5,722 bases of DNA from Actinomycetota bacterium. Its GTDB lineage: Bacteria; Actinomycetota; Acidimicrobiia; Acidimicrobiales; Ilumatobacteraceae. This document shows, in pieces, positions 1 through 5,722 of this stretch. The notes beneath the pieces are model-generated. The model was given only the letters and a program-made list of their open reading frames with translations, ran no database searches and was not told where the DNA came from. The number at the start of each line of letters is the position of its first letter. Position 1 is the first letter of the stretch. The stretch is taken from the NCBI GenBank assembly GCA_009701105.1, contig WLKU01000091.1, forward strand, positions 1 to 5,722, in the 5' to 3' direction. The position numbers and the translations under genes were made by a program.

Positions 1-174
1 CTCGTCTTGCTCGGCTGCTGCTGGTGCTGCTGCTCCGCCGCCGGCTATTGCAACTGCCGCTGGGGCTGCTGCTGTTACACCGAACTTCTCTTCGAATGCA
101 TCAAGGAGGTCCTTGAGCTCGATAACGGTCAACTCTGCGATTCCGTCAAGAATCTGGTCTTTGGTAATTGCCAT
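1..174 (-). CDS. rplL: 50S ribosomal protein L7/L12, N-terminal part (cut by window edge)
   Basis: L7/L12 forms the mobile stalk of the large subunit, where it recruits translation GTPases; it is anchored as dimers on L10. The 58 visible codons begin [20 protein letters not shown], the N-terminal helical dimerisation domain (about residues 1-32, ending near EEKFGV). An Ala/Pro/Gly-rich flexible hinge follows from about residue 33. The C-terminal GTPase-contacting domain, normally about 70 residues, lies beyond the left edge. The ATG at 172-174 is preceded by a strong AGGAG site. The gene follows rplJ in the conserved rplJ-rplL order, which supports the call. Identification rests on the N-terminal sequence, the hinge and the synteny, and is secure. 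Confidence 0.97.
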
Positions 175-182
175 GATTATTT

Positions 183-187
183 CTCCT
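183..187 (-). promoter_or_regulatory. Ribosome binding site of rplL
   Basis: The transcript reads AGGAG eight bases before the rplL ATG. It is the strongest Shine-Dalgarno in the window and fits the need to make several L7/L12 copies per L10. Confidence 0.85.
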
Positions 188-220
188 GTTTTCTGTATTG
201 ATCTGGTTATTGGATCTGTT

Positions 221-236
221 TGGTTAATTGGTTAAT
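221..236. repeat. Tandem 8-bp direct repeat in the rplJ-rplL spacer
   Basis: Two perfect adjacent copies of tggttaat (221-228 and 229-236). A related tggttat lies at 204-210. The repeat is short and AT-rich, with no known function; it may reflect replication slippage. Confidence 0.7.
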
Positions 237-253
237 GAATTACAACGTGTGCT

Positions 254-784
254 TTATGCGGCTTCTTTGGACTCGATAAGTGACTTGAGACCGTATGCAA
301 CCTTGCGCAATGGTGCTTGCAACAAGTTGGCCGTCTTGTTGAGCGGTGCTTGCAACATGCCAGCAAACTGGGCAAGGAGAACTTCGCGTGGTGGCAAGTC
401 GGCCAATACTTTGAGTTCTCTTGCATCGACGGTTTTGCCGCCGATAACTCCACCCTTGAGCAACAACAATGGGTTTTCTACGGCATGATCGCGCAGAGCT
501 TTAGCTACTGCAGATGCGTCACCCTTAACAAACGTGATGGCTGTTGGGCCAACAAGCATGTCGTTCAAACCTTCAAAACCCGCTTGTGTTGCTCCAAAAC
601 GAGCAAGTGTGTTTTTGTAGACCTTGTACTCTGCGCCATGCACGCGCAATGAGCGGCGCAATTTGGCCAACGAACCTACGGACATGCCGCGGTACTCGGT
701 AACCAATGCTGCGTCAGCAGCGGCAAACTTTGCTGCGACTTCCGAGACGACTGCAGCTTTTGCTGCGTTTGGAGTTGTTGCCAT
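254..784 (-). CDS. rplJ: 50S ribosomal protein L10
   Basis: L10 forms the base of the L7/L12 stalk, binds 23S rRNA next to L11, and represses its own operon as an L10-L12 complex. The 176-residue protein shows the N-terminal RNA-binding domain with the typical YRGMSVGSLAKLRRSLR segment (residues 31-47) followed by EYKVYKNTLARFG (52-64). The C-terminal helix (about 138-170) holds three consecutive 11-residue units, two of them ending in LQAPL. E. coli L10, from memory, is 165 residues, so this one is about one unit longer. The ATG at 782-784 has GAGG six nt upstream (791-794). The upstream RNA leader is the expected autoregulatory target. Identification is secure. Confidence 0.98.
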   Translation of the reverse strand: MATTPNAAKAAVVSEVAAKFAAADAALVTEYRGMSVGSLAKLRRSLRVHGAEYKVYKNTLARFGATQAGFEGLNDMLVGPTAITFVKGDASAVAKALRDHAVENPLLLLKGGVIGGKTVDARELKVLADLPPREVLLAQFAGMLQAPLNKTANLLQAPLRKVAYGLKSLIESKEAA

Positions 785-790
785 GATGAT

Positions 791-794
791 CCTC
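791..794 (-). promoter_or_regulatory. Ribosome binding site of rplJ
   Basis: GAGG on the transcript, six nt before the rplJ ATG. It directly follows an AAACGA block (793-798, overlapping its first two bases) that can pair with UCGUUU at 835-840, so its accessibility could depend on leader folding. Confidence 0.8.
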
Positions 795-822
795 GTTTAT
801 TTGGTTCGTGTAGCGCGAGTGC

Positions 823-840
823 TCGTTTGACGTGAAACGA
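823..840 (-). promoter_or_regulatory. Stem-loop just upstream of the rplJ ribosome binding site
   Basis: The transcript reads UCGUUU-CACGUC-AAACGA, a 6-bp stem with a 6-nt loop. The same UCGUUU could instead pair with the AAACGA that abuts the rplJ Shine-Dalgarno (793-798), giving two mutually exclusive folds. The pairing is visible; any switching role is inference. Confidence 0.4.
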
Positions 841-848
841 ACACTTCA

Positions 849-877
849 AGCGCTGCAACCGAATTGCCGGTCGCGCT
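849..877 (-). promoter_or_regulatory. Stem-loop in the rplJ 5' untranslated region
   Basis: AGCGC (873-877) pairs with GCGCU (849-853). An inner ACCG/CGGU helix (868-871 with 858-861) has a GCAAUU loop. It lies between the L10 leader and the start codon. No U-run follows, so it is not an intrinsic terminator. Confidence 0.45.
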
Positions 878-886
878 CTTCAAAGG

Positions 887-960
887 ATCCGCCTCGTTTG
901 GTAGAACCGAAGTTCTGTTATTCACTCGCTTTCGCTTGTGAACCAAATGTCTGTGGCGAG
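887..960 (-). ncRNA. L10 leader: kink-turn and three-way junction (autoregulatory site of rplJ-rplL)
   Basis: Read on the transcript strand, this segment folds into a coherent structure. A basal helix pairs CGCC (958-955) with GGCG (893-890). An asymmetric internal loop follows: 5' ACA-GA-CA, 3' C-GA. This is a 3-nt bulge plus tandem G951-A894 and A950-G895 pairs, the signature of a kink-turn. Next comes UUUGGU (947-942) paired with ACCAAA (902-897). That helix encloses two flush hairpins: 922-941, with a GAAA loop and tandem purine mismatches, and 903-916, AGAAC-UUCG-GUUCU. L10 leaders that bind the L10(L12) complex are known to use a kink-turn with a branched helix mimicking the 23S site. 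Position before rplJ and architecture agree; no covariance test was possible. Confidence 0.85.
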
Positions 961-1021
961 CAGCTCTCACTTGTTGGTTATGTGGTGAGTTCTGATATGT
1001 AGGTTGGTCAGGTTAGCGGGA

Positions 1022-1801
1022 CTAACGCCCCTTGCCACCTCTAGAAATCTTGCGAAAGATGGGTCTTGGAAGGTGGCGTAAAACAAACATTAACCAGCGA
1101 AGTTTGCCGGGAACCCAGACTGTGACTGGCCCACGGCTCAACCTCCTAGTTATAACTTTGGCTATATCATCCGGATTGGACGTCAGGGGGGCTTCTGGAA
1201 TCCCTGCAGACATCCGTGTTCTCACCATTCCAGGGCGCACAACAAGCACTCGTACGGCAGTTCCCGCAATCGCATCTGCAGCACCATTCGCCCAAGCGTC
1301 AATACCAGACTTCGCCGACCCGTATACATAGTTATCTTTCCGCGGACGCTCTGCAGCGACCGAAGAAATAACCACAAGGGTTCCATGACCTTGCTTTTTA
1401 AACCGACCTAATGCTGCCGTACCGATTTCGAGAGGTCCAAGAAAATTGACTTTTGCAGACTCAACCGCATACTCCGCGTCATTCATGACTCGGGCAGCAT
1501 CTGGCAGTACACCAGCAGCTAATACGACTACATCAATACGTCCACCATCAAAAATTTCATCAATAATCGATGACAACGTGCCCGACTCGACCATATCCAT
1601 GTGAAACTGCTCGATCTTTGCTTTTGCAAATTCGACTGACAATGTTTCAGCAGTACGCTGCAAATTTTCTGATTGGCGACCACAAAGCACAACTCGTTGC
1701 AAACGTTTACGCCTGCCCATCTCGCGAAGCGTTGCAATCCCAATTTCTGAAGTTCCACCGATTAAAACAACAGATTGCACATTTCCAAGTCCGTCGATCA
1801 C
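1022..1801 (-). CDS. dprE2: Decaprenylphosphoryl-2-keto-D-erythro-pentose reductase DprE2
   Basis: DprE2 is the NADH-dependent short-chain dehydrogenase that reduces the 2'-keto intermediate made by DprE1, giving decaprenylphosphoryl-D-arabinose. The 259-residue protein has the nucleotide-binding motif GGTSEIG (residues 15-21), AAG (95-97), catalytic Ser146/Ser147, and YGSAK with Tyr160 and Lys164. The RPGMVRTRMSAG segment (189-200) and the C-terminal LRHLPRPIFRKI (241-252) match what I remember of the M. tuberculosis DprE2 C-terminus almost word for word. The start is GTG at 1799-1801, overlapping the dprE1 stop as GTGA, with GAGG at 1810-1813. It is last in the cassette and adjacent to its partner DprE1. 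The main alternative, a generic SDR, is unlikely given these matches. Confidence 0.95.
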   Translation of the reverse strand: MIDGLGNVQSVVLIGGTSEIGIATLREMGRRKRLQRVVLCGRQSENLQRTAETLSVEFAKAKIEQFHMDMVESGTLSSIIDEIFDGGRIDVVVLAAGVLPDAARVMNDAEYAVESAKVNFLGPLEIGTAALGRFKKQGHGTLVVISSVAAERPRKDNYVYGSAKSGIDAWANGAADAIAGTAVRVLVVRPGMVRTRMSAGIPEAPLTSNPDDIAKVITRRLSRGPVTVWVPGKLRWLMFVLRHLPRPIFRKISRGGKGR

Positions 1802-3132
1802 AACCCAAGCCTCAGTGAAAGATTTGAGGTAAATATATGATCTGGATCAATTCGGATTTTCACCGCAAGGAATTCGTTTAAGCGTGGATACATGGCTCCA
1901 AGATAGTACGGGTCCATCCGAGAATCTTTAGACAAGTAGATGCGTCCCCCAGCCTCGACTACGCGAGAGTCCATCTCGTCGAGTAATTCGGATAAACCAT
2001 AAAACGAAGCAGAGACATCCACTGCAAGTGTCCAGCCTTTTAATGGAAACGACAGCAGTCCATTGTTCTGATCCCCAAATCTTTTGAGCACTGACAAAAA
2101 TACTGGACACTTTGCTCGAACAAACATTTCAATGATTTCTGGCACGAGATGAGCCGCACTTTCTGGAACCACGAACTGATATTGAATAAATCCAGCCGAA
2201 CCGTACATTCGATTCCAACCTTCAACCCCATCAAGTGGATGGAAGAACTTGCTAACCGTTTGAATCGCGATCTTTGGTCGACGGGGAGATTTTTGAAACC
2301 ATAACTCATTGAACAGTCGCACTGTCAAGTTGTTGAGCAGACCATTAGGAAACCACTTCGGACTATGAATGCGTTGCTTTGGAAAATAGTCCAGGAGGGT
2401 TTTTCGATCTCGTTTTGAAAGGTCAGAAATCGAAGCATGATCTCCGACAGACAAAACTGCCCGCCCCAGATTTTTGCCTTTAGCCAACATGTCTATCCAT
2501 GCCACTGAATACTTATTCTCTCTGTCGCTCGTAATCATCGCCGACATTAAGTCGTGAACATTTGAATACCTTGAAGTGACAGTGCGCATGCGAGATGTCT
2601 CAACTTGAATCATGCGAATCTTGGCAGAAATGATTACACCAGTTAGTCCCATGCCACCAACGGTTGCCCAAAAAATTTCTGAGTCGACTTGAGGACTTAC
2701 TGTGAGCACCTCCCCATTTGCAATTAAAAGATTCAGTTGCACAACGTGAGCTCCAAAAGTCCCATCTTTATGATGATTCTTCCCGTGAATATCAGAAGCT
2801 ATTGCACCACCAACCGTCACAAATCGTGTTCCAGGTGTGACTGGCACGAACCAACCATGAGGTAACCACTGCTCAATAATTGACTCAAGTGTCACACCGG
2901 ATCCTGCAGTCAATATTCCATTCTCCATTGACATGTCAAGCCAAGTGTTCGTTTTAATTGTCTGGCCGCCAGCAATTACTGCACAATCTCCATAAGAGCG
3001 GCCAAGTCCACGTGTAATCATCGGCTCTTGTTCAGCAAGGCCATTTACCAATTCATCACAATCGACACTCAACAAATGTGTCTCTGACCAAGCAGTTCGT
3101 CCCCAACCACTCAACTTCGTAGATGAATTCAA
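1798..3132 (-). CDS. dprE1: Decaprenylphosphoryl-beta-D-ribose 2'-oxidase DprE1
   Basis: DprE1 is the FAD enzyme that oxidises the 2'-hydroxyl of decaprenylphosphoryl-ribose, the first half of the epimerisation to DPA, at the outer face of the membrane in mycobacteria. The protein has 444 residues against 461 in M. tuberculosis. It shows LSGWGRTAW (7-15), RGLGRSYGD (41-49), PGTRFVTVGGAIASDIHGKN (100-119) and ATVGGMGLTG (156-165) in the FAD domain, then YGSAGFIQYQFVVP (310-323), SKDSR (401-405) and a C-terminal RIDPDHIF. By my alignment from memory, Tyr60, His132, Lys134, Trp230, Gln336 and Lys418 are kept as Y47, H116, K118, W212, Q319 and K402. Cys387, the benzothiazinone target, is Ala370 (codon 2023-2025), and Asn385 is Thr368. 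The start is TTG, overlapping the ubiA stop as TTGA, with GAGGG upstream. Confidence 0.96.
   Translation of the reverse strand: MNSSTKLSGWGRTAWSETHLLSVDCDELVNGLAEQEPMITRGLGRSYGDCAVIAGGQTIKTNTWLDMSMENGILTAGSGVTLESIIEQWLPHGWFVPVTPGTRFVTVGGAIASDIHGKNHHKDGTFGAHVVQLNLLIANGEVLTVSPQVDSEIFWATVGGMGLTGVIISAKIRMIQVETSRMRTVTSRYSNVHDLMSAMITSDRENKYSVAWIDMLAKGKNLGRAVLSVGDHASISDLSKRDRKTLLDYFPKQRIHSPKWFPNGLLNNLTVRLFNELWFQKSPRRPKIAIQTVSKFFHPLDGVEGWNRMYGSAGFIQYQFVVPESAAHLVPEIIEMFVRAKCPVFLSVLKRFGDQNNGLLSFPLKGWTLAVDVSASFYGLSELLDEMDSRVVEAGGRIYLSKDSRMDPYYLGAMYPRLNEFLAVKIRIDPDHIFTSNLSLRLGL
1810..1813 (-). promoter_or_regulatory. Ribosome binding site deciding the GTG start of dprE2
   Basis: GAGG lies inside the last codons of dprE1, 8 nt before the GTG at 1799-1801. 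With the 4-nt overlap it supports the GTG start over any internal ATG. Confidence 0.75.
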
Positions 3133-3986
3133 CTAAACACCCTCACGGCAAAAAGCAACGCCCAGAACAACACCAACACTTGTATGCCGACATCTCCTAG
3201 TACTACATCTTCTGGTGATTCAGCGTCACCACTATCAATATGATGCGCGTATCGAAGCAATACAAGGGTGAATGGTAATGCTGTCAAAAGTGCCAACCAA
3301 TGTTTTCCTTCTACACCAATTTCCACAGACCATAGAACATAAAAAACTAGTGCCAACCCCATGGACGAAGTCCACAACACTCTCAAATATGACTCGCTAT
3401 ACGTACGGAGAGAGTTACGAGTCTCCCCATTCTCACCGTGATTGCGGAATTCACAAAAGCGTTTACCTGAAACGATGAACATCGCAGATGCGGCAGTCAC
3501 TGTAATGAACCATGGCGAAATCAGAATTCCAGCTGCGAGGCCTCCAGCCATTGCCCGCAAGACAAATCCCGAGGAAACCACGACAAGATCAATGAGGGCA
3601 ATGTTTTTTAGAACGAGCTGATATCCAACCTGCAGTGTTGCATACGCAGAAAGAACTGCGACTAAATTCCAAAGGCTAAAAAAAATCGGAAGTGAAATAC
3701 CAGCTGCCCCAAGAACGATGCTCGTCATAATCGCGCGCCGAATAGATAACTGCCCGGAGGCAATGGGTCGATTCTTTTTCTTGGGGTGCAGTCGATCTTG
3801 CGCTACGTCTCTAATGTCATTAATAAGGTACGTTGCCGCGCTAAGGGCAGTAAAAGCAATAAACGCAAGGAGCGATTTAAATACAGCATTGCTATTTCCC
3901 AAATCGCCCGATGCCAATGGAACTGCAAATACAAGTAGATTCTTGATCCATTGTTTTGGCCGAGTGGCGCGCAGTAGTTGAATCAA
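3129..3986 (-). CDS. ubiA: Decaprenyl-phosphate phosphoribosyltransferase (DPPR synthase, UbiA family)
   Basis: This integral membrane prenyltransferase-fold enzyme joins decaprenyl phosphate and PRPP to give 5-phosphoribosyl-decaprenyl phosphate, the committed step of DPA synthesis. The 285 residues open with RATRPKQWIKNLLVFAVPLA (6-25), the family N-terminus also seen in mycobacterial Rv3806c. The acidic motif N56-D57-x2-D60-x3-D64, followed by HP and NRPIASG, is the metal/diphosphate site. Further landmarks are SSGFVLRAMAGG (138-149), SGKRFCE (173-179) and SPEDVVLGD (257-265). About eight or nine hydrophobic segments fit the UbiA fold. The start is TTG at 3984-3986, overlapping the upstream stop as TTGA, with only a weak GGA 8 nt before it. 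A different UbiA prenyltransferase is possible but unlikely beside dprE1-dprE2. Confidence 0.93.
   Translation of the reverse strand: MIQLLRATRPKQWIKNLLVFAVPLASGDLGNSNAVFKSLLAFIAFTALSAATYLINDIRDVAQDRLHPKKKNRPIASGQLSIRRAIMTSIVLGAAGISLPIFFSLWNLVAVLSAYATLQVGYQLVLKNIALIDLVVVSSGFVLRAMAGGLAAGILISPWFITVTAASAMFIVSGKRFCEFRNHGENGETRNSLRTYSESYLRVLWTSSMGLALVFYVLWSVEIGVEGKHWLALLTALPFTLVLLRYAHHIDSGDAESPEDVVLGDVGIQVLVLFWALLFAVRVFS
3140..3144 (-). promoter_or_regulatory. Ribosome binding site deciding the TTG start of dprE1
   Basis: GAGGG within the 3' end of ubiA, 7 nt before the TTG at 3130-3132. The first in-frame ATG lies well inside the FAD domain (M38), so TTG is the credible start; it also retains the conserved GWGRT segment. 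Confidence 0.8.
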
Positions 3987-5356
3987 CTTTTAAATCCATA
4001 AATAATCAATGTCGCGGCAATAGGACCATTCAACGAGACCACCACACCCAACATAATTGCCTTGGCGCGTTCTCCGGTCTTTCGTAATTCAAAAATACGT
4101 TCTAGTAAAATTCCTGCCCAAATTGCGATGACTAAATTTGATGAAAAAAACAAATCTATATCTGCTTTTGGGCCAAGTTTTGGAATCATAAAAAACATGT
4201 AGAGCAAATTCCAAGCTACGAAGACGAACGGTAACGACACCATGCGCTTTAGTCCATTGGGTGTGTATTTCGCTTTGACGGATCCAAGTCTCAAATTCAT
4301 ACCGACAAGAAATATGAGTGCAATTGTGGCTATGCCTCCTGCGAAAACTCCAACAAAGACTAAGTCCCGAATGTGGAATGAGGAAAATGCTGACGACAAA
4401 GAATAAAACGGGGACTTATCCGACATCGAAGTACCCTGATAATTATGACTTCCAAAGTCTCCAAGATTCATATCATCTGTTAGTAACGCTAGATAATTGC
4501 TGTGCCCAACCGGCCAACCAATTTCTATTGCAATGAAATATGCCAGAACTGATACAGACATCCCAAATAGTCGACTTCTGAAGGATGTTGCTTTACTAAA
4601 TAGTTTCATCCATACAAAAAGAGTCAGTGGCACAAATCCGACATATAGAGCGGGTAGAAGTCCAGCAACTACAAAAAGAAAATTGGAGGCCTCGATGTCT
4701 TCATCGGAAAAAATCCAAAGGGCAAGCAACAGAAAAAGACCTGCGACAAATGGGTAATACTCGTCATACCCGAGACTAAATGCAAGCCATATCGGAGAAG
4801 TAAGTGGAAAAACAACAAAGGCCTTTGATCCATAGTGTCGAGCGATCGCAACTGTTGAAGCGCACATAATTGTTGCTGATGCGATGGGAACAAATTTTTG
4901 CGAGGAAATAGAAATTACAAAATGATTCAAAAGACCATAAAAATCAATCATCGCAGTTGTCCCAAGAAGCCATCTCGTAAATGGCTTACTTTCATTAATG
5001 GCAGTGCTGAGCGCGCCGCCATCTCCATAGCTCTTAAACCACCAACCGCCCTTATAAGTCTGAATAAACGCAAATACAAACAACCCACAAGGAATGACCA
5101 AAGAAAAAGATAATCCCTCGACCCATTTTGTCCTTTTCCAAAACAGTTGCACATAGCCATACAGCACAACAGATATGAGAAGTGAAATAGATATGTAGCC
5201 CGAACCACTTCTCAATGAAGTAAAAGAAGCGCCGTTTAAGTCAACAACACTAAGACAAACTGCACAAATTGATACATACACGAAAAGTACTGCTGCTGCG
5301 ATACCAATCTTCGAGTTAAGTCTCAATGGCACGGCCATGGATTTAACATTAGCCAT
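3983..5356 (-). CDS. Polytopic membrane protein of unknown function, candidate GT-C-type glycosyltransferase
   Basis: I do not recognise this 457-residue protein. It has about 12 to 13 hydrophobic segments (roughly 18-40, 53-72, 83-100, 130-150, 157-173, 178-195, 200-216, 226-250, 264-282, 331-354, 372-391, 403-420, 433-453). The extramembrane loops are short, apart from about 101-129 and 283-330. The first carries SYGDGG (109-114, Asp112); LGYDEYYP (195-202) holds a second acidic pair (D198, E199). Many TM segments with acidic residues in loops suit a GT-C glycosyltransferase using a polyprenyl-phosphate sugar. The gene overlaps ubiA by 4 nt and heads the DPA operon, so a DPA-dependent arabinofuranosyltransferase is a reasonable guess; a flippase or transporter remains possible. 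The ATG at 5354-5356 lacks a clear Shine-Dalgarno, and Met7 (5336-5338) is an alternative start. Local GC is low (20 of 60 in 4561-4620). Confidence 0.8.
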   Translation of the reverse strand: MANVKSMAVPLRLNSKIGIAAAVLFVYVSICAVCLSVVDLNGASFTSLRSGSGYISISLLISVVLYGYVQLFWKRTKWVEGLSFSLVIPCGLFVFAFIQTYKGGWWFKSYGDGGALSTAINESKPFTRWLLGTTAMIDFYGLLNHFVISISSQKFVPIASATIMCASTVAIARHYGSKAFVVFPLTSPIWLAFSLGYDEYYPFVAGLFLLLALWIFSDEDIEASNFLFVVAGLLPALYVGFVPLTLFVWMKLFSKATSFRSRLFGMSVSVLAYFIAIEIGWPVGHSNYLALLTDDMNLGDFGSHNYQGTSMSDKSPFYSLSSAFSSFHIRDLVFVGVFAGGIATIALIFLVGMNLRLGSVKAKYTPNGLKRMVSLPFVFVAWNLLYMFFMIPKLGPKADIDLFFSSNLVIAIWAGILLERIFELRKTGERAKAIMLGVVVSLNGPIAATLIIYGFKS

Positions 5357-5389
5357 TTGTTTTTAGCTGTCTTTGAATACCAAAGGGTA
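5357..5389 (-). other. Short rplA-cassette spacer without terminator
   Basis: Only 33 nt separate the rplA stop from the membrane-protein start. There is no U-tract terminator and no recognisable promoter, so read-through from the ribosomal transcript into the cassette is likely. The stretch before the ATG is A-rich with no clear Shine-Dalgarno. Confidence 0.6.
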
Positions 5390-5391
5390 TT
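5376..5391 (-). repeat. Small inverted repeat over the rplA stop codon
   Basis: The transcript reads AAUACC-CUUU-GGUAUU, a perfect 6-bp stem with a 4-nt loop that includes part of the rplA UAA stop. The bases after it (CAAAGACAGC) are not a U-run, so it is not a standard terminator. It may act as an RNA processing or stability element, or be chance. Confidence 0.45.
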
Positions 5392-5722
5392 AGAAGTTGC
5401 TGGTATCGATCTTGATGCCAGGTCCCATTGTTGAGGACACGTTGATCTTCTTGATGTAGCGACCCTTGGCCGAAGCTGGGCGGGCGCGCTGCAACTCGTC
5501 TAACACTGCAGAAAAGTTGGCTTCAAGAGCTGACAATTCAAAACTGGCCTTGCCGATTGGCACTTGTACGTTGCCGTACTTATCGGTGCGGTACTCCACT
5601 TTGCCACCCTTAAATTCGGTGACTGCGCGAGCAACGTCCAACGTGACGGTGCCGGTCTTTGGGTTTGGCATCAGACCACGTGGTCCGAGTGCGCGACCCA
5701 ATTTTCCGACCATTGGCATCAA
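5390..5722 (-). CDS. rplA: 50S ribosomal protein L1, C-terminal part (cut by window edge)
   Basis: L1 forms the L1 stalk of the large subunit, binds 23S rRNA, and helps eject deacylated tRNA from the E site; in several bacteria it also represses its own mRNA. The visible 110 residues carry the family signature region [20 protein letters not shown] (residues 2-21 of the visible part). The conserved [21 protein letters not shown] region and a C-terminal [19 protein letters not shown] follow. Full L1 is about 230 residues, so roughly the N-terminal half lies beyond the right edge. The first visible codon (5720-5722) is TTG, an internal leucine and not a start. The expected next gene would be rplJ; instead a membrane gene follows 33 nt after the TAA at 5390-5392. 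Confidence 0.97.

Follow-up and report, generated by a model that had tools for sequence, protein, structure and literature searches.

A likely variable slot for envelope-glycan genes between rplA and rplJ in Ilumatobacteraceae

In a stretch of 5,722 nucleotides (nt) from an Actinomycetota bacterium of the family Ilumatobacteraceae (GCA_009701105.1, contig WLKU01000091.1, positions 1 to 5,722; hereafter "the window"), a four-gene cassette, three of whose genes belong to families for the biosynthesis of decaprenylphosphoryl-arabinose (DPA), lies between the ribosomal protein genes rplA and rplJ. We think it fairly likely that, in small-genome actinobacteria of the Ilumatobacteraceae type, this place is a variable slot for accessory envelope-glycan cargo at the tail of rplKA, with the cassette read from rplKA and rplJL served by a promoter of its own. 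According to this reading, UbiA, DprE1, and DprE2 would make DPA, and the first cassette protein, predicted to have a GT-C fold, would use DPA or a similar lipid-linked sugar on a surface glycan. The cassette would be transcribed as a 3' extension of rplKA, as its spacing and gene overlaps suggest, and rplJL would start anew from a promoter, indicated by its conservation, and a leader. The slot would gain, lose, and swap cargo, with homologous recombination in the conserved flanks of ribosomal genes as a possible route.

Every gene described in the window is on the minus strand, and the order along transcription is rplA (3' part), 33 nt, the gene of a 457-amino-acid (aa) membrane protein, ubiA, dprE1, dprE2, 237 nt, rplJ, and rplL (5' part). 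An earlier note on this DNA had reported a same-strand four-gene unit between rplA and rplJ, set off from rplA by 33 nt; its genes, strand, order, and coordinates are all correct. The features are listed below, with profile scores given against their cut-offs.

5390 to 5722, minus strand: 3' part of rplA (L1), truncated at the window end; Pfam Ribosomal_L1 117.9 bits versus 32.2, TIGR01169 165.6 versus 216.3
5357 to 5389, minus strand: 33-nt spacer separating rplA from the cassette; no site resembling a promoter or terminator listed there
3983 to 5356, minus strand: predicted GT-C-fold glycosyltransferase, 457 aa, multi-pass membrane protein; putative donor DPA
3129 to 3986, minus strand: ubiA-type decaprenyl-phosphate phosphoribosyltransferase, TTG start; NF008978 306.4 bits versus 207
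1798 to 3132, minus strand: dprE1, TTG start; NF053785 529.9 bits versus 500, DprE1 entries of the PDB at E = 5.4e-103
1022 to 1801, minus strand: dprE2, GTG start; NF053786 279.7 bits versus 250
1033 to 1038, minus strand: weak -35-like hexamer GTGGCA (4/6 consensus positions) within the dprE2 end, 17 nt from the -10 element
1010 to 1015, minus strand: -10 element TAACCT of a putative rplJL promoter; TANNNT at the aligned position in 45/51 loci
785 to 1005, minus strand: conserved rplJ leader, no Rfam match; 200-nt identity to L001 and L002, blocks across 54 loci
254 to 784, minus strand: rplJ (L10); NF000955 170 bits versus 85
1 to 174, minus strand: 5' part of rplL (L7/L12), truncated at the window end; identified by eye

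The L1 score falls below the TIGR01169 cut-off because the gene is cut by the window end. Within the cassette, neighboring genes overlap by 4 nt at each of the three internal junctions (3983 to 3986, 3129 to 3132, and 1798 to 1801; starts TTG, TTG, and GTG), suggesting that the four genes are translated as a unit. Families were called from NCBIfam profile scores against curated cut-offs, which DprE1, DprE2, and the DPPR synthase (UbiA) all exceed, placing the three in the families of DPA biosynthesis. The window's DprE1 also aligns nearly full length with solved DprE1 structures. Judged by family membership, UbiA, DprE1, and DprE2 would together make DPA. Aligned with solved DprE1 chains, the window's protein has an alanine opposite the cysteine of the NVCVDF/NICVDF stretch, which we take to be the benzothiazinone-binding residue.

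The first cassette protein matches no Pfam or NCBIfam family at E ≤ 0.001. It is predicted to be a GT-C protein with multiple transmembrane helices, and its likeness to the arabinosyltransferase families AftA, AftB, and Emb is one of fold only, with no sequence match in Pfam, NCBIfam, or the PDB. Residue D112, between helices 84 to 102 and 115 to 121, is invariant among 27 aligned sequences and may be the acidic first-outer-loop residue of GT-C enzymes. The predicted fold suggests that the protein probably uses a lipid-linked sugar. No GT-C relatives were found in 395 genomes of the class or in 12 close genomes, in searches that had no positive control and whose emptiness shows little. The earlier note's label of a four-gene cassette for DPA thus holds for the three DPA genes and is slightly too broad for the first one.

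Two other loci bear on whether the arrangement is real. Loci were collected by an L10 search of species genomes, from which the best 80 of 140 were used. In L074, the order is rplA, an L-2-hydroxyglutarate oxidase gene (549.7 bits versus 299), ubiA, dprE1, dprE2, and rplJ, and in L007 the contig begins within dprE2 and continues into rplJ. Identity to the window is 55% for DprE1 (L074) and 52% and 59% for DprE2 (L074 and L007, respectively). Since these are separate assemblies with related but diverged sequences and the same dprE2-rplJ adjacency, a chimeric assembly, in which a DPA operon had been fused to a ribosomal contig, is very unlikely. We give it hardly any credence, even though the G+C content of the cassette (0.41 to 0.49) is below that of rplA and rplJ (0.52 to 0.53) and the contig of L001 begins inside the -10 box, about 11 nt from the position of the window's dprE2 end. 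The earlier note's proviso, that the arrangement might be found in this assembly only, is thereby settled. The first gene behind rplA differs between the two longer loci, being the GT-C gene in the window and the oxidase gene in L074; therefore, the unit is modular.

If the place is a variable slot, close relatives should differ in what it holds. Each of the three carriers (window, L074, and L007) has a close relative with an empty gap: in the L1+L10 tree, the window pairs with L002 (100/99), L074 with L005 (98/92), and L007 with L008 (97/41), and cargo-bearing L003 is identical to empty L006 in the columns used. Nucleotide identities are 91 to 93% in rplJ and rplA for window/L002, 98% for L003/L006, 99% in rplJ for L007/L008, and 85 to 86% for L074/L005. 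Presence and absence thus alternate at one conserved site in all four pairs, which are species-level genomes and not strains of one species. L001 is slightly nearer to the window in rplJ than L002 is (93% versus 91%), and its contig starts inside the -10 box. This start (L001:1) falls near the expected joining point of the cassette, which looks as though a polymorphic junction had broken the assembly.

The earlier note had proposed comparing the interval across relatives; the arrangement does recur, and it is rare. We surveyed the 221 genomes of the family to which L074's genome belongs, leaving out of the gap count the second-fragment rows of G015, G103, G147, G130, and G205 and the partial L1 of G190, which was treated as "L10 only." DprE1 scored above cut-off in 109 of the 221 genomes. 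In 117, rplA and rplJ were on one contig, with a gap of less than 600 nt in 93 and a larger one in 24; a single one of the 117, L074's own genome, has DprE1 inside the gap. DprE1 is located elsewhere in 67 of the 68 genomes that have both DprE1 and an intact rplA-rplJ contig. Among 12 close genomes, DprE1 is above cut-off in one (L074's); of the other 11, G001 and G007 have contigs that break at the junction, and G007 carries dprE2. DprE2 matches at E ≤ 1e-30 occur only in L007's and L074's genomes among the 12, both below the cut-off of 250 (176.5, in a cut gene, and 244.6).

Arabinosyltransferases of the Emb and AftA families were found in none of these 12 genomes, carriers G007 and G012 included, although the Corynebacterium glutamicum control was positive. 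In 10 further DprE1-bearing genomes, an Emb match was present in two and an AftA match in none. Because most DprE1-bearing relatives tested are likewise without them, this absence is not peculiar to the slot.

The phylogeny of the DprE genes sets the slot copies apart. Trees were built without L155 (same place as L130) and L129 (taken as a near-copy), from rows of at least 120 aa for DprE2 (53 of 60 used) and at least 250 aa for DprE1 (59 of 60 used). For dprE1, the window and L074 make up a clade (100/100) outside the main DprE1 clade of the family (100/100), which takes in 29 of the 31 other family rows; the remaining two, L128 and L134, take an unsupported position near this pair. For dprE2, the slot genes of all three carriers (window, L007, and L074) likewise group in a single clade (100/100). 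These trees would fit one origin of the slot DprE genes, followed by repeated loss or exchange via the ribosomal flanks. More generally, the comparison of close relatives suggests gain, loss, or swap of slot cargo, perhaps through homologous recombination in these conserved flanks. A search for repeats at the borders found none in the window, L074, and L003, and no tRNA gene borders the slot in the loci scanned; the nearest tRNA before the slot in L003, L004, L009, L010, L018, and L022 is tRNA-Trp, upstream of the rplKA region.

Other lineages carry other cargo in the same place. In eight small-genome loci, the window included, the cargo is on the operon strand, starts 18 to 47 nt after rplA, and is of five kinds. 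Besides the DPA genes, these comprise a TIGR04372 glycosyltransferase (L013, L016, L023, and L027; profile run on L013 and L027), a set of GNAT, DegT aminotransferase, and GT2 genes (L003), and an O-methyltransferase (L043). The site thus holds alternative content, mostly glycan genes, on few events. Several observations weigh against a slot devoted to glycan genes. The slot oxidase and the O-methyltransferase are not clearly glycan genes. Among large-genome relatives, we examined 16 of 17 intervals longer than 500 nt (G137, 26.7 kb, was left out); six open with a profile-supported antisense gene and three with same-strand genes, and the other seven rest on mechanical open reading frames, which are unreliable in such G+C-rich DNA. 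The same-strand genes include those of PKD-domain proteins in L161 (889 to 6513, 1874 aa) and L166 (816 to 6659, 1947 aa), starting 118 and 42 nt after rplA, respectively. They also include a methylmalonyl-CoA mutase gene in L173 (755 to 2386, 676 bits), 22 nt after rplA, a nonglycan operon-tail cargo that weakens the case for a glycan-only slot. Since PKD proteins and a mutase occur there, appending genes to rplKA is not restricted to glycan genes, and the glycan bias of the slot holds for the small-genome clade and for few events.

How the cassette is transcribed depends on its two boundaries. The earlier note had seen no intrinsic terminator at either of them, and our scan of the window agrees: neither flanking spacer contains a T-tailed terminator. 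The window as a whole has seven terminator-like sites, versus 6.0 expected from shuffles, and the one closest to a boundary is a 5-pair site within dprE2 (1110 to 1094). What the earlier note did not see is the -10 element TAACCT directly behind dprE2 (1015 to 1010). TANNNT stands at the aligned position in 45 of 51 loci, a conservation that points to a putative rplJ promoter. The leader before rplJ, which the note had recognized, is found at 785 to 1005; it is conserved in blocks over 54 loci, and over 200 nt it matches the leader of L001 at 98% and the leader of L002 at 96% identity. Both elements are kept between dprE2 and rplJ in carriers and noncarriers alike. In L074 the dprE2 stop codon forms part of the -10 box, and the dprE2 frame of L007 stops immediately behind that box, so that the cargo directly adjoins the putative rplJ promoter. 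Rfam gave no match in the window at E ≤ 1 and no L10 leader in nine relatives, where tRNAs alone reached the gathering score.

A hairpin before the -10 element was also considered. Among 21 loci folded, it reaches z scores of -4 to -5 in seven empty relatives (L002, L004, L006, and L008 to L011) and is weaker in the other valid empty loci (-2.6 to 0.5; the L005 piece, misplaced inside rplA, was excluded). The window, L003, and L074 have no such hairpin between rplA and the cargo; in L007 it is retained behind dprE2. A larger test was mixed, with 15 of 40 empty loci reaching 0.05 against 60 shuffles and two of 10 carriers keeping the hairpin, and we do not claim it as a general terminator of rplKA.

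These boundaries bear on the proposal of the earlier note that a single transcript runs from rplA through the cassette into rplJ and ties arabinan-donor supply to ribosomal output, taken here as a selected link to growth rate. The lack of a terminator in either spacer is compatible with it, and the hairpin of the nearest empty relatives is missing from the window, so some read-through into rplJ is possible. However, a conserved -10 element and leader stand behind the cassette, close relatives have an empty gap, other lineages hold other cargo in the same place, and DprE1 occupies the interval in just one of 117 family genomes, all of which make a selected single transcript improbable. The note's idea of transcription running through nevertheless retains its first half: the cassette is probably transcribed from rplKA, given the 33-nt spacer and the 4-nt overlaps, and such transcription would not be needed for rplJ. 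Read-through from rplKA is likely because cargo starting 18 to 47 nt after rplA leaves little room for a promoter. As rplJL keeps a putative promoter and a leader of its own, the ribosomal string would be functionally split into rplKA plus cargo and rplJL.

Alternatively, a dedicated promoter within the rplA 3' end might drive the cassette, with independent regulation and an incidental position. Only the last 333 nt of rplA lie in the window, which leaves room for this idea, yet no sigma-70-like site is listed in that end, in a scan covering one promoter type. Moreover, same-strand cargo of five kinds at similar short distances from rplA in eight loci is what a shared reliance on rplKA would lead one to expect; we therefore regard an own promoter as rather unlikely and retain transcription from rplKA.

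In the parts of PMC10931766 drawn on here, rplA is described as cotranscribed with rplK and autoregulated by L1 in most bacteria, and the rplJ-rplL mRNA as autoregulated through its leader by L10(L12)4, which fits two separate units in the window. A growth-rate link would then be possible on the rplKA side only, and the patchy occurrence of the cassette, with DprE1 not above cut-off in 11 of 12 close genomes, weakens it as a conserved design. The window resembles the rplK-rplA and rplJ-rplL(-rpoBC) operons treated in those parts of the paper in its genes and in the long conserved leader before rplJ, and differs in the envelope genes between the two units and in a leader without an Rfam match.

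The three enzyme families are those of the DPA genes of Corynebacteriales and other Acidimicrobiia, and the order ubiA-dprE1-dprE2 is frequent among the class loci compared; unlike nearly all other DprE1 genes of the family, the slot DprE1 lies between rplA and rplJ and outside the main clade. The rplA-rplJ interval of Mycobacterium presumably also holds envelope genes, there for mycolate modification, antisense, and concerned with lipid, whereas those in the window are same-strand arabinan genes. Another parallel lies in the flexible genomic islands for envelope glycans of streamlined aquatic actinobacteria such as the order "Ca. Actinomarinales," for which the sections of PMC7771536 used here describe small envelope-sugar cassettes gained and lost in the island fGI1. 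The slot shares with such "glycotype" islands a fixed location, a content varying between close relatives, envelope-sugar genes, and small cassettes. It differs from fGI1, as presented in those sections, in lying inside a ribosomal string with one to four genes on the operon strand, and neither tRNA genes (in the loci scanned) nor flanking repeats were seen to border it. In the open-access papers searched, no account turned up of DPA genes in the rplA-rplJ interval (subscription papers were outside the search). What is new is thus a known kind of variable envelope-glycan cargo at an unusual address, the ribosomal string.

If this reading is right, small-genome bacteria could vary their surface by adding cargo to a highly conserved and strongly expressed operon, with its flanks as possible recombination arms and no need of a classical island. 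DPA synthesis would be optional: one lineage has it, we did not find it in the near relatives, and Emb and AftA went undetected in the genomes concerned. The use of arabinan decoration outside mycolate-bearing actinobacteria would thereby become testable. It is tempting to go further and view the rplA-rplJ junction as a dedicated operon-tail glycan slot of small-genome Ilumatobacteraceae, in which alternative surface-sugar modules expressed from rplKA are exchanged by homologous recombination in nearly invariant flanks and swaps set the glycotype at high, growth-linked expression with rplJL untouched; we put this forward tentatively, as a possibility that we do not expect to hold in full.

A few further observations concern the compared loci. 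A scan of IMG/VR for DprE1 found one stretch matching a pattern and none encoding a relative, so there is no sign of a viral carrier there. The DprE1 match G141:C14:18867-19910 contains three TGA codons and one TAG and looks broken. The rplA-rplJ gaps of L014 and L015 (384 and 375 nt) contain tandem GGGTTAATGTCGC-like units, and L059, grouped with L014 in the L1+L10 tree, has a similarly long gap. In large-genome relatives, the rplA and rplJ matches are as far apart as 26.7 kb (G137 C20) and 11.5 kb (G138 C402). Finally, L003 (17 to 4814) and L004 (5 to 1214) also have glycan-type genes immediately before tRNA-Trp and secE, a few kilobases ahead of the rplA slot; these genes encode a rhamnosyl O-methyltransferase-like protein, a hexapeptide transferase, a GT2 protein, an ABC transporter, and a SIS-domain protein.

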